NCBI GenBank assembly: GCA_036940085.1 | Contig: JALLBK010000059.1 | Coordinates: 41,004-105,003, forward strand | Direction: 5' to 3' | DNA: 64,000 nt | Source: Discostella pseudostelligera | Taxonomy: Eukaryota; Bacillariophyta; Thalassiosirophyceae; Thalassiosirales; Thalassiosiraceae | Shown: positions 43,978 through 49,629 of the stretch, piece after piece | How positions within the stretch are numbered: position 1 is the stretch's first letter | How the letters are laid out: every line of letters begins with the position of its first letter | Translations under genes and position numbers: made by a program | The notes under the pieces: generated by a model | Databases searched by the model: none | Told to the model about the DNA's origin: nothing | Seen by the model: the letters and a program-made list of their open reading frames with translations, nothing else

Positions 43978-45250
43978 TTAACATTTGTATCGTTCTTCTT
44001 CCTTAGCATACTTCCCAAATCCAACTACATTCTTTGTCTCCGCGAACGATAATATCTTGTCAAATGTTGGCTTTCCCTCCTTAATCAAGTCTAAAGATTC
44101 TTGCATAGATTTGATTGATGCACTTAACAATGTCAATGGATATGCCGCCATTGTGTATCCCATTTGTTGTAATTCCGCAGGTGGTAGAATTGGAGTCGAA
44201 CCGTACTCAAGCATGTTTGCTAATTTTGGACCGGATACTCGCCGACAGTACTCTTCCATTTGTTCGACGGATTGTGGTGCCTCCAGGAAAGTCATATCAC
44301 ACCCAATTTCTCGGAATTTAATGCATCGTTGGATAGCATCCTCTTTGAAATCCGATGCATGAATAATTGATGACATAAGATTGTTCTGCATTCATTGTAC
44401 GTGCAAATAATGAACGAAGAGTTAAGCGATGCTCACCAAACCCATCAGTAACAAGTGAATCGGTTCTCGCTAATATCAATGGCCCTGTTCCTTTTCCAAA
44501 CAATGCCTCATACTCATCCCTGTACGTTTCAAGCGCATGACGAGTTTACACCCACAATAATATGGATTCTTGAGCATAGAAACAATGCAAAATTGGTTTG
44601 CAAAACAATGTGCTTCCTTACCTTGCATCGCATGCAGCTTGAACTCGTTTCATAGCCTCATCAAACGGTACAACGGATTTGCCGGCAACATGTCCACATC
44701 GCTTGGGAGCTAACTGATCTTCAATCATCATCCCCGCCATTCCGGCCCTGGCGTAGCCAAACACTGTCCGTTTCACATTAATTGCATTCCCATATCCCGT
44801 GTCTCCGTCAGCAATGCATGGAATAGCAACGGGTGGACCGCTTTGATCTGGTTCGCCGTAGTTGACCAATTCCAGAGCTGCACTCGACAGTCCTTCGGCA
44901 ACAGAGTTGGCGGCGGATAACATCTCATTAAATGATACAAGCTGAGTATCCGGATAACCGTTGGCGCCACTGACGCCAAATCCTGTCATGAAAGTAGCAT
45001 TGAAGCCCGCCAGTCCGACAAGTCTGGCAGTCAATCCGTCGTAGCAGCAAGGCAGGAGTATGATGGGTGCCTCGCCGCTGTCAGTGGCGTGTAAGAGTCG
45101 TCGAAGTCTCTCTGGCGGTGGACATCCGAATGCTGAGGCAAACAATATTGGCGTATGCAGTAGAAGTTTTACAATTATCATACATATTGCGTAGTACGCG
45201 TGTGTGAAACGGACCGATGGTATCGTCGTCTTCGTGGATTTGTCAACCAT
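43978..45250 (-). CDS. PEP mutase / isocitrate lyase family enzyme, predicted plastid
   Basis: Exons 45250-44622, 44519-44437 and 44342-43978; 358 residues. The N-terminus has a hydrophobic signal ending F-A-S-A then F41-G-C, the classic diatom plastid ASAF motif; M24 (45181) would give a more compact signal peptide. The catalytic barrel shows FMTGFGVSGANGYPD, the metal-binding IADGDTGYGN, IEDQLAPKRCGH (the KxCGH loop of the superfamily) and LILARTDSLVTDGF. The family includes 2-methylisocitrate lyase, PEP mutase and oxaloacetate decarboxylases; the plant plastid relative is annotated as carboxyvinyl-carboxyphosphonate phosphorylmutase-like. The precise reaction cannot be set from sequence. 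Confidence 0.85.
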
Positions 45251-45839: not shown

Positions 45840-46302
45840 ATGCCTGTTAAGAGACGCAACCACGGAAGGAATAAGCACGGACGTGGACACGTCAACCGTG
45901 TCAGGTGAGCACTTAATAATGGAGTGGTCTTGGAACGACGCGAGATGTAATCTGGTGGACCGTTCGGCGGTTATCACATGTCATCGACTCACAAATCTTT
46001 GCTCTTCAATCTCTATCTATTCATAATAATTTATGATATCCAGATGTGCATCAACTGGAAAGGCCATCCCCAAGGACAAGGCCATCAAGCGCTTTATTGT
46101 CCGCAATATCGTTGATGCCTCATCACTTCGAGACATTAAGGATGCCTCTGCTTACCCGGAATATCAGCTTCCCAAACTATACCTTAAGATGTACTACTGC
46201 GTTGAGGCCGCTGTGCATCAGCGTATTGTGCGTGGTCGTTCCAAGGAGGCTCGTAGGATCCGTACACCTCCGGAGAGGAAGAGCTTTGCTAGCAAGAAGT
46301 AA
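45840..46302 (+). CDS. RPS26: 40S ribosomal protein eS26
   Basis: Small-subunit protein at the mRNA exit channel. Exons 45840-45904 and 46044-46302; 107 residues. The N-terminus MPVKRRNHGRNKHGRGHV, then PKDKAIKRFIVRNIV and LPKLYLKMYYC are diagnostic. In human eS26 the zinc site is C23, C26, C74 and C77. Here C23 and C74 remain, but position 26 is Thr and 77 is Ala, so the zinc site is half lost. The protein is slightly shorter than human (115), lacking the Pro-rich tail. The phase-2 intron after the first 21 codons fits the frame. Confidence 0.93.
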
Positions 46303-46529: not shown

Positions 46530-48029
46530 TTAAAATGTTGCAGAGTAATAAACTCCTTTCTTTTTGACATTGGCAGAGGTGCCGGCAACTTCATCTCCAT
46601 CCAGCCAACCATCAGGAATCAAGTCTCTATCAACTTTTGCCTTAAAAACACCACCCTGTCCAGAAACTTTAACACCGCGTATCAGGTACTCCACTCGTTT
46701 GATTTCAGTCACTCGCATTCCACTATCTTCTCCAAAGGCAGCCACTGCTCTTTGAAAGTCTGGATTACATCGTTCTTCTAAAGTTGTTTCATATGTCTTA
46801 CCCAACTCGACTATGGCAACGGCCATGCCTTTGGTGTAACCCGGTGGTAACGATTTGAGCGCTTGTATCTCATTATCATCAAGTCCTCCACTCCTCATAA
46901 CATCAATGTGTCGATCACCGTCGGGATATATTCGTTGACCTACATGGAGGAGCATTTTGGTGCCCTCTGGATAGGGTGTGAACATGGTACCATTCCTTGT
47001 CTCGAGAGTTTTGTATCCATTGCTAAGGAGTGCCGCGAAGGGTAAATTCATGCTAAACACTCTCAGTTCCACATTGTTATTTCCTTCCTCGATATTATCC
47101 TTGTTCACAAACTCAATGTTCGCTGCAGCATCCTTTCCATTTCTCGAGTCGGAAGAGATTGTAAATGACAACTCATCGCCTTCTTCTACATCTTCGCCAA
47201 TTGGCAGTGCACTAAAATGAAAGAATACATCCTTCGTACTACGGTCTCCATACCGTATGAACCCAAAACGCTTTTCCCTACTGATGAATTTGACTTGACC
47301 CACGTGTCGTTGGTTGCGATCAGCCTTCGTTTTCAGTATGGTAACTGAACTATCCCACTCAATAATAGTACCAGGAGTTTTGTGTGCTGACCAATCCTTG
47401 TAATGCTGCAATGCATTCTTCCATATCGAAAGTTCATACAACCCATTCGGACAATGCACAGATAGTACACCCAACTGCGCAGATACCAGTTCACAATTCC
47501 CATACCGTCCATCGCGGGCATCATCAAAGAATATCATGTCGCTGTAGGCAATGCCCGAATTGCGTTGTAAATTTGTAAAATGTTGTATTTTATCACCAGG
47601 GAATATTTCAATGTAGTCAAAAAAGTCACGTAGGTCGAATTGATCTAATAGATGATGTGCCCACTCTACCGATTTGGTTCGTGAGGCTACTGCAAATTTC
47701 GTCTTTGCAAAATGACCGTCACCACCACCGTTGCGATCATTCTTTACTTGTTGAATAATCTCCTTGGCAGCCGGGAAGAGCTTTACATCCTTGTGTGCCA
47801 CGGGAAATTGATTTGCTCGTTCAAGAGTACGCAATTGATACAATTCAGGTGTCCACAGGGTATTGTCCAAGTCGAATACCACAAGAGATGGCAGCAGGTT
47901 GGTGGTGGTGCCGCGGTGACTTCCTAATCTTGAGTACGATGATGTCATTTTGGACATGGTAAAAGCAGAGACCATGGACAGAATGCTCGCCAGGAGTAGA
48001 GACGACCTAACGATGCTAGAGGGAATCAT
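46530..48029 (-). CDS. HAD phosphatase (MDP-1 type) - cold shock - ASCH domain fusion, predicted plastid
   Basis: 499 residues, single exon. Residues 1-22 form a signal peptide ending V-S-A before F23, the diatom plastid pattern. Domain 1 (about 48-225) is a magnesium-dependent phosphatase-1 HAD fold: nucleophile motif VVFDLDNTLW, ASRT, then GDKIQHFTNLQ and FFDDARDGRYGN. Domain 2 (about 250-310) is a cold shock domain: GQVKFISREKRFGFI ... DVFFHFSAL. Domain 3 (about 325-480) resembles ASCH/PUA-like RNA-binding domains: FSMNLPFAALLSNGYKTLETRNG, MLLHVGQR and AVAIVELGKTYETT. A phosphatase coupled to two nucleic-acid-binding modules suggests action on RNA ends or a repair/editing role. The substrate is unknown, and I know of no described protein with this order. 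Confidence 0.8.
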   Translation of the reverse strand: MIPSSIVRSSLLLASILSMVSAFTMSKMTSSYSRLGSHRGTTTNLLPSLVVFDLDNTLWTPELYQLRTLERANQFPVAHKDVKLFPAAKEIIQQVKNDRNGGGDGHFAKTKFAVASRTKSVEWAHHLLDQFDLRDFFDYIEIFPGDKIQHFTNLQRNSGIAYSDMIFFDDARDGRYGNCELVSAQLGVLSVHCPNGLYELSIWKNALQHYKDWSAHKTPGTIIEWDSSVTILKTKADRNQRHVGQVKFISREKRFGFIRYGDRSTKDVFFHFSALPIGEDVEEGDELSFTISSDSRNGKDAAANIEFVNKDNIEEGNNNVELRVFSMNLPFAALLSNGYKTLETRNGTMFTPYPEGTKMLLHVGQRIYPDGDRHIDVMRSGGLDDNEIQALKSLPPGYTKGMAVAIVELGKTYETTLEERCNPDFQRAVAAFGEDSGMRVTEIKRVEYLIRGVKVSGQGGVFKAKVDRDLIPDGWLDGDEVAGTSANVKKKGVYYSATF

Positions 48030-48378
48030 TGTATCTCTCTAGAAAAGGATGTTAGTATGGATGTAGTGTTGATCTCCCTCCGTCGTCGATCGGCATGCAG
48101 CAGTATCCTAGCAGGATCGTAGATAATTGATGTGAGATGCATTAGGACTCGCTGACTGCTTAATCAGAATGCAGCATTTTGGCGATTTCATCTACGGTAG
48201 ACTCTTGCTACAATTGCCATTATCACACAATGATGTTACTGATGGATTTTACTTCCCTAAGTAGAGTGCGTAGCAATCGCCAAATGCACTCCTACGTAAT
48301 CTTTGCCAAGGCCCCGCCGCCAAATCAGCCGCCGACCGCCGACTGTGTCAAAATCAACCGTATCCGACACTCATCAAC
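48030..48378. promoter_or_regulatory. Divergent region, HAD-CSD-ASCH / TAF12
   Basis: 349 bp. TTTTGGCGATTT at 48177-48188 is a weak E2F-like box. A CCGCC-rich stretch at 48313-48340 may be UTR. No gene is seen. Confidence 0.4.
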
Positions 48379-49629
48379 ATGGTGCCACCACCAAAAGGCA
48401 AGGACTTGAGCCGCATGTCGGCCCCTCCCCCGGTATCGACGACCGCTGAGCCGTCCCCGGTAGGCTCGCCGGCGCAGGTTGCAGCTGCAACAGCGGCAGT
48501 AGCGTCGCCCAGTGGCGTAGGCGGAGCGCCCTCGCCATCGCCACGAACGGGCAAGCCCAAGGGCAAGGACTTCAGTCGAATGGCGGGTCCACCTACGTCC
48601 ACCACCCCCACAGCCGAGATATCCCAACCTCCGCCAACCGTGCCCGTCTCCCAGCCTCCCATGCAACTCCAAAACAATAACATCATGCAGATGGCTCTTC
48701 CAACTCCAACCAACATGGGCAATAATCTTGCCACCAACTTTTCGCGGCAAAATTCGCTATCATCCACAATCTATGCACAGCCACCTCCGTTGGTTCATAC
48801 TCAGCCTCCACAGTATCAGCCACTCGCGTCCAGTGCGCCCATGAATCCCACCCAGCAGCCGCAGCAGCAAATGCAGATGCAACAACAGCTACAACTACAA
48901 CAAATGCTGCAACAGCGACAATTGCAGATGCAACAACAACAACAACAAATGCAGCAACAGCAACAAATGCAACAGCCCACGATCGTATCCTCGTTAAGCA
49001 CGCATCTCAATCCATTAGTAGTGGCGCCTCAGCTACCAACGCAACGTCCTTCGTGGTCGGATGCTCGTTTATCTACTATGGTGGAGGATAGAGGACAAGC
49101 AGTCACTGCTACCCAACGGATGATGATGATGCCACCTTTCAACAGCAACAACAATAAGAAGACCAACAGCAATAACAACAATAATGACGGGTATGGCAAA
49201 CCAACTCTAGCACCCATACTTGGCGAGAAGCTTCAAAAGTTATGTAATTCCATTGACCCATCCTACTCCCTCGACTCGGAGGTACAAGAACGTCTCGTAG
49301 AAATGGCCGATTCCTTTGTTGAGAAGGTAACAAAGGATGCTATAAAATTGGCCAAACATCGTGGATCATCGTACATGGATGTTGTCGATGTGGCATTGGT
49401 ATTGAAGAAGGGGTATAATTTGGAGGTGCCGGGATTGGGTCCACCGAGTGTCGCTTCCACGAATGGTGAAGTAGGTGTCGGAGGTAGTATGGGAGGTCGG
49501 GGGAGTGGTACACTCATGGGAGGGTGGATTTTTGCAGACAAGGTGAACCCTGGTGAGATACGTGGCAGAGTAGGGGACGGAGATGAGCAGCAACCATCAC
49601 CAAAGAAAAAGAAGCGGGGGACAATGTGA
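48379..49629 (+). CDS. TAF12: Transcription initiation factor TFIID subunit 12 (also SAGA)
   Basis: 416 residues, single exon. The N-terminal about 200 residues are Pro/Ser-rich, then a Gln/Met-rich tract encoded by CAA/CAG repeats (48855-48975). The histone fold (about 275-345) reads KLQKLCNSIDPSYSLDSEVQERLVEMADSF... with the TAF12 pattern A-K-H-R-G-S-S-Y-M-D-V-V-D-V and ending in V-P-G-L-G. It pairs with TAF4 in TFIID and with ADA1 in SAGA. The C-terminal Gly-rich tail ends in a basic P-K-K-K-K-R, a nuclear localisation-like sequence. Kozak-like AACATGG at the start. Confidence 0.87.
   Translation: MVPPPKGKDLSRMSAPPPVSTTAEPSPVGSPAQVAAATAAVASPSGVGGAPSPSPRTGKPKGKDFSRMAGPPTSTTPTAEISQPPPTVPVSQPPMQLQNNNIMQMALPTPTNMGNNLATNFSRQNSLSSTIYAQPPPLVHTQPPQYQPLASSAPMNPTQQPQQQMQMQQQLQLQQMLQQRQLQMQQQQQQMQQQQQMQQPTIVSSLSTHLNPLVVAPQLPTQRPSWSDARLSTMVEDRGQAVTATQRMMMMPPFNSNNNKKTNSNNNNNDGYGKPTLAPILGEKLQKLCNSIDPSYSLDSEVQERLVEMADSFVEKVTKDAIKLAKHRGSSYMDVVDVALVLKKGYNLEVPGLGPPSVASTNGEVGVGGSMGGRGSGTLMGGWIFADKVNPGEIRGRVGDGDEQQPSPKKKKRGTM

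Follow-up and report, generated by a model that had tools for sequence, protein, structure and literature searches.

A diatom protein joining an MDP-1-related HAD phosphatase, a cold shock domain and an EOLA1-type ASCH domain behind a plastid-like presequence

What might a phosphatase domain do when it is fused to two folds of a nucleic-acid-binding kind and preceded by a presequence of the diatom plastid type? The question is raised by a gene in a 64,000-nucleotide stretch of Discostella pseudostelligera (GenBank assembly GCA_036940085.1, contig JALLBK010000059.1, positions 41,004 to 105,003 of the forward strand), and this whole stretch is called the window here. An initial annotation, made from the sequence letters, had described an uninterrupted frame of 499 codons encoding a HAD phosphatase, a cold shock domain (CSD) and an ASCH-like region in this order. 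The frame is confirmed, and by prediction and sequence all three folds are present (Table 1). An in-frame TAG, read by eye, lies at 48039-48041, four codons ahead of the ATG, and the open frame measures 502 amino acids in the whole-genome scans of the source genome (23,041,147 bases, 963 contigs), so that the start is bounded and an intron is unnecessary. An artefact of assembly or frame is ruled out by full-length fused relatives from several sources.

The fusion is conserved among diatoms. A homologue search with the window protein gave 370 proteins, and 119 of the 120 matches listed carry both Acid_PPase and CSD; the sole exception, P0090, is a fragment with the CSD only. When a distant member, P0118, was used as query, 361 proteins were found and all 120 matches listed carry both domains, the pennate diatoms Cylindrotheca closterium and C. 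fusiformis being among them. The order of the three domains in one protein is found elsewhere in diatoms, in centric as well as pennate relatives. Among the matches listed, the closest protein (P0002) is 98% identical to the window protein, and named relatives from Thalassiosira, Cyclostephanos, Stephanocyclus and Conticribra, together with a CCRYP protein (presumably Cyclotella cryptica), are 66-73% identical. Five entries of MMETSP, which we take to be a transcriptome project, bear 'type:complete' in their listed names, in full or cut off (P0005, P0007, P0030, P0102 and P0111). The listed matches of both searches plus the window protein make 150 different sequences, the basis of all counts out of 150 given below, and these conservation figures describe matches selected by similarity. 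The mean majority frequency, calculated on 121 proteins, is highest in the ASCH domain (0.85), followed by the HAD domain (0.75) and the CSD (0.67).

The HAD domain of the window protein scores 117.5 bits against Pfam Acid_PPase (PF12689, gathering cut-off 27), which matches all 25 members of alignment A1 at E<=0.1 (best value 3.7e-36), and it barely exceeds the cut-off of HAD-IIIC (TIGR01681, 36.7 against 35.75 bits). The identification as MDP-1 held only in part. MDP-1 is the nearest NCBIfam family for the HAD domain in 25 out of 25 proteins scanned, but the window protein reaches 43.8 bits with the MDP-1 equivalog model (TIGR01685), below its cut-off of 53.75. Six A1 proteins pass (P0006, P0022, P0030, P0069, P0079 and P0108, with 55.6, 55.6, 60.4, 57.0, 55.6 and, as the highest value, 64.7 bits, respectively), while 19 do not, the nearest miss being P0086 with 53.3 bits; for this reason we place the diatom HAD group at the border of MDP-1. 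Its catalytic positions are retained in nearly every one of the 150 sequences. The solved MDP-1 chains (1u7o, 2wm8) have 164 and 187 amino acids, whereas the diatom protein adds two further domains. In the alignments the MDP-1 loop following motif I is replaced by TPELYQLR, with W59, P61, E62, L63, L66 and R67 invariant wherever covered (140 or 141 of 150), and four extra residues stand behind the motif-IV aspartates, with G174, G177 and N178 present in 150/150. Judging from the HAD fold, both the loop and the insertion would lie near the substrate entry, so the substrate of animal MDP-1, named protein-fructosamine-6-phosphatase in a title (Fortpied 2006) cited in PMC6694639, should be neither assumed nor excluded for the diatom protein.

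The CSD, originally proposed from its KRFGFI and VFFHF segments, is borne out by a score of 46.3 bits against PF00313 (cut-off 27). The aromatic and histidine positions of RNP1 and RNP2 are conserved, F257 and H271 being found in 150/150. Bacterial cold shock proteins of the CspA family have the same fold with RNP1 and RNP2, but CspA, with about 70 amino acids, stands alone, while the diatom CSD is one domain within a phosphatase fusion.

Of the profile searches that the initial annotation had suggested, those for Acid_PPase and CSD were thus positive, but the Pfam ASCH model (PF04266, cut-off 21.2 bits) gave no match to the window protein; it matched one of ten A2 members (E 0.12) and was absent from the families matched by the 25 A1 proteins at E<=0.1. 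Structure comparison of the full-length model returned mainly HAD proteins and the ASCH domain was therefore modelled alone. Sequence and predicted structure together identify the region around GYKTLETR as an ASCH fold of the EOLA1 type, in which K340, E343 and R345 of the motif occur in 150/150 and the first glycine, G338, in 123/150. EOLA1 (CXorf40; 6kir, 5y7d, 9kyi) belongs to the same ASCH subtype and retains GxKxxExR. EOLA1 is a stand-alone protein of 158 amino acids according to PMC6803910, whereas in the diatoms the domain belongs to a longer, presumably plastid-located protein. The same paper proposes an aromatic cage formed by F8, Y12 and W48 with R9, E24, R26 and K21. We mapped the EOLA1 pocket positions by alignment to M327, F331, Y368, N328, E343, R345 and K340, each of which is kept in 148-150 of 150 sequences. 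Where EOLA1 has F, R, Y, W and W, the diatom proteins have M, N, F, N and Y. As far as the alignment tells, this is the same pocket type with a fixed residue set of its own, which makes a specific ligand likely, possibly a different one from that of EOLA1. No ligand of EOLA1 is identified in the available portion of PMC6803910; its authors consider nucleotide binding likely and the nuclease activity of ZmASCH absent, and an RNA aptamer screen of theirs gave no hits. For ZmASCH itself, Tyr47, Lys53 and Ser128 are given as the ribonuclease residues (PMC5615036). The N4-acetylcytidine (ac4C) amidohydrolase YqfB has a Thr-Lys-Glu triad (PMC6972931). The nucleophilic threonine of YqfB (9kyf, 9kyh), three positions past the motif lysine, is a glutamate in all 150 proteins of the diatom set, and hydrolysis of ac4C in the manner of YqfB is therefore not expected.

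A signal-peptide-like stretch ending in V-S-A and followed by phenylalanine, as first described, is also found: the hydrophobic part obeys the -3,-1 rule, and a helix at residues 10-22 appears with low confidence in the structure model. Diatom plastid preproteins have Phe at +1 and a transit peptide that is rich in hydroxylated residues, poor in acidic ones and of net positive charge, and a prediction tool additionally accepts W, Y and L at +1 (both from PMC4329603). Our own script found these features in the window protein, which has 3 K/R, no D/E and 10 S/T among the 24 residues 23-46. The F23 column of alignment A1 contains 23 F and 2 gaps out of 25. For a broader count, 126 of the 150 proteins begin with M and show motif I; 36 of these have fewer than 35 amino acids ahead of the HAD domain and 12 have no hydrophobic stretch, which leaves 78 usable sequences. 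Phenylalanine stands at a -3,-1-rule site in 75 of these 78 (the exceptions are P0116, P0122 and P0131), the runner-up being leucine in 36, and its enrichment over background is 9.2-fold, as compared to 0.4- to 6.9-fold for the other residues (the highest, D, in five sequences). In a slightly different selection, comprising 76 relatives with a usable F, the stretch of 20 residues counted from this F is free of acidic residues in 54 cases, and the 76 stretches combined contain 188 K/R versus 25 D/E. The 48 sequences out of 126 that have no extension or no hydrophobic stretch give no support for targeting; five of the 12 just mentioned (P0055, P0113, P0125, P0128 and P0137) start at motif I without any extension. 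Among the 48, some may be cut gene models and others true exceptions. The presequence pattern is evident at the level of sequence, and from it we infer a plastid location.

Table 1. Features of the fusion gene and its product in the window
Feature	Window position	Strand	Residues	Remarks
Single-exon open reading frame	46530..48029	minus	499 aa + stop	frame supported by relatives of full length
Signal-peptide-like stretch ending V-S-A	47964..48029	minus	1-22	hydrophobic stretch and -3,-1 rule, own script
Transit-peptide-like stretch starting F23	47892..47963	minus	23-46	own script
HAD phosphatase domain (Acid_PPase, HAD-IIIC, nearest MDP-1)	47397..47894	minus	46-211
Cold shock domain, RNP1 KRFGFI, RNP2 VFFHF	47115..47300	minus	244-305	Pfam E 4e-12
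EOLA1-type ASCH domain	46602..47072	minus	320-476
GxKxxExR motif GYKTLETR	46995..47018	minus	338-345

How could these parts work together? We propose that the nucleus-encoded protein enters the plastid via the signal peptide and the transit peptide starting with phenylalanine, that the CSD and the EOLA1-type ASCH domain would hold it on RNA, or on ribonucleoproteins (RNPs) or nucleoids, and that the ASCH pocket would probably be selective for a certain base or ligand. The HAD domain, tethered in this way, would then strip phosphate groups from the bound nucleic acid or from adjacent molecules. We take the present HAD group to be one without a large cap domain, so its active site would be open. 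Nucleic-acid binding by the CSD and the ASCH domain, catalytic activity and substrate are all what we infer, and we give the reading as a plastid phosphatase tethered to RNA or RNP about as much belief as doubt. RNA or DNA ends and sugar-phosphate adducts appear roughly equally good as substrates. The two proposals built on them are narrower versions of the tethered phosphatase, so the likelihoods that we attach to them overlap with that of the broader reading.

The first of these is deglycation in the plastid. Sugar phosphates of the Calvin cycle would glycate amines at ribosomes or nucleic acid, the CSD and ASCH domain would bring the HAD domain there to take the phosphate off sugar-phosphate adducts of RNA, of DNA or of proteins of the ribosome or nucleoid, and a plastid fructosamine/ribulosamine kinase would then free the adduct. 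The proximity of the whole group to MDP-1, with six members above its cut-off, agrees with this in view of the protein-fructosamine-6-phosphatase activity described for the animal enzyme. The genome also contains a single gene of the fructosamine-kinase family, with three exon matches on contig C125 (L018:774-1481), whose first exon, read by eye, has a hydrophobic stretch running into TESSFAF-TTH with an A-F junction, resembling a plastid presequence. In plants, ribulosamine/erythrulosamine 3-kinase is regarded as a putative protein-repair enzyme, and in one Arabidopsis set the chloroplastic share of glycated proteins was 90% (both from PMC7312737). On the other hand, the window protein does not reach the MDP-1 cut-off and differs in the motif-I loop, and genes of the kinase family are common, being present in 5 of 14 control genomes. 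Joint action of phosphatase and kinase is a supposition, and we consider deglycation rather unlikely. Its most specific form, a dedicated plastid repair enzyme on RNA or ribosomes that dephosphorylates sugar-phosphate lesions of nucleic acid or RNP upstream of a plastid fructosamine kinase, seems more doubtful still.

A plastid RNA/DNA-end phosphatase, in which the HAD domain trims 3' or 5' phosphates on transcripts or breaks under the guidance of the CSD and ASCH domain, is to our mind just as unlikely as deglycation. The initial annotation had pointed in this direction by suggesting a plastid enzyme for RNA ends or modified nucleotides. The joining of a HAD domain to two nucleic-acid-binding folds speaks for it, and nucleic-acid ends are the substrate of other HAD proteins that lack a large cap, for instance the PNKP 3'-phosphatase. 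However, the families matched by the domain are Acid_PPase and HAD-IIIC, and its Pfam matches at E<=1 do not include PNK3P. A protein of the PNK3P family is encoded separately in the genome (a 1001-amino-acid frame, L019:987-3992, contig C555), which weakens the proposal but does not remove it. We find it very improbable that the protein regulates plastid gene expression by binding RNA through an active CSD and ASCH domain, with the HAD domain serving as a sensor of small-molecule phosphate or carried along as a near-vestigial passenger. The stronger conservation of the ASCH region fits this, but the upkeep of the HAD catalytic positions would be needless in a passenger.

In the source genome the EOLA1-type domain appears to be single-copy, as it occurs at one place, the window gene itself (one match at E<=1). 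The Pfam ASCH model gave no match in the genome, the window gene included, and therefore cannot count this subtype. Acid_PPase is found at three places and the CSD at ten, again including the window gene. The other two Acid_PPase genes are distant (L002 with 25% identity over the match, L003 with short matches), and Pfam found no CSD in their scanned exons. L003 (1132-1974, contig C159) opens with a hydrophobic stretch and A-S-A-F, and by its sequence it is possibly a second plastid-targeted phosphatase of the Acid_PPase group. The L019 frame, viewed by eye, also holds an apparent P-loop kinase segment and, at its C-terminal end, a stretch resembling aldo-keto reductases; it may be a further fusion of an unusual kind, or two genes may have been taken for a single one.

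As to the age of the fusion, a search with the ASCH domain only gave 108 proteins, many of the matches being short, and these may be contig fragments. A divergent group, far from the diatom sequences, carries VAHG or a similar motif where diatoms have SNG or ANG and includes at least P0199, P0219, P0220, P0222, P0226, P0235, P0239, P0246 and P0248, of which P0246 is labelled Isochrysis galbana, presumably a haptophyte. No complete sequence of this group was found among the 108 proteins. P0235, with 37% identity to the window protein, has an apparent HAD end followed by CSD and ASCH; this one fragment suggests that the fusion may predate diatoms or may have moved between algae, the evidence outside diatoms being thin. 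The Heterosigma-labelled P0086 was dropped as a second lineage, as it falls within the diatoms on the ASCH tree beside P0159 (90/74; tree built from 97 of the 176 usable sequences, bootstrap not settled), and it is probably a contamination. The idea that the ASCH domain came from prokaryotes or viruses was rejected after scans limited to two peptide patterns, in which viral contigs gave 14 pattern matches and no relative and genome contigs gave 43 pattern matches and one relative. The latter (L013:2-475, 50% identity) is an EOLA1-type ASCH at the contig edge of a cyanobacterial metagenome-assembled genome; its neighbour, read by eye, is an mnmA-like frame with an odd C-terminal half. The contig may be chimeric, and L013 is probably a eukaryotic carry-over.

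In the window, a TAF12-type (TFIID_20kDa) gene at 48379-49629 on the plus strand begins 350 bases from the fusion gene in divergent orientation, and a common promoter region is possible. On the other side, about 230 bases from the stop of the fusion gene and tail to tail with it, ends what by eye resembles a ribosomal protein S26 gene with an intron (~45840-46302, plus). A gene of the phosphoenolpyruvate mutase/isocitrate lyase family, apparently with two exons, lies at 43978-45250 on the minus strand (the scan covered 44618-45250).

The three domains are individually known, and the new part, as judged from the open-access literature, is their order behind a plastid presequence, for which we found no description there. 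The earlier statement that no such protein had been described agrees with this literature, but databases already assign Acid_PPase and CSD by computation to many entries, some of which are called 'magnesium-dependent phosphatase 1' and others 'CSD domain-containing protein', and the EOLA1-type domain is not marked there. Our literature search found no paper tying EOLA1 to mitochondrial translation, and the one paper listed for MDP-1 together with a cold shock domain concerned COVID-19 markers. Here, then, is an apparently plastid-bound protein, kept in centric and pennate diatoms, for which we found no described function, and whose gene is open to tagging and deletion in a transformable diatom. 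The domains to which the ASCH domain is fused here allow a concrete guess at the role of the EOLA1 type. If the repair enzyme described above were real, it would be the first nucleic-acid-guided glycation-repair step in an organelle, and deglycation, if true, would tie the upkeep of organelle RNA and ribosomes to the chemistry of the Calvin cycle.
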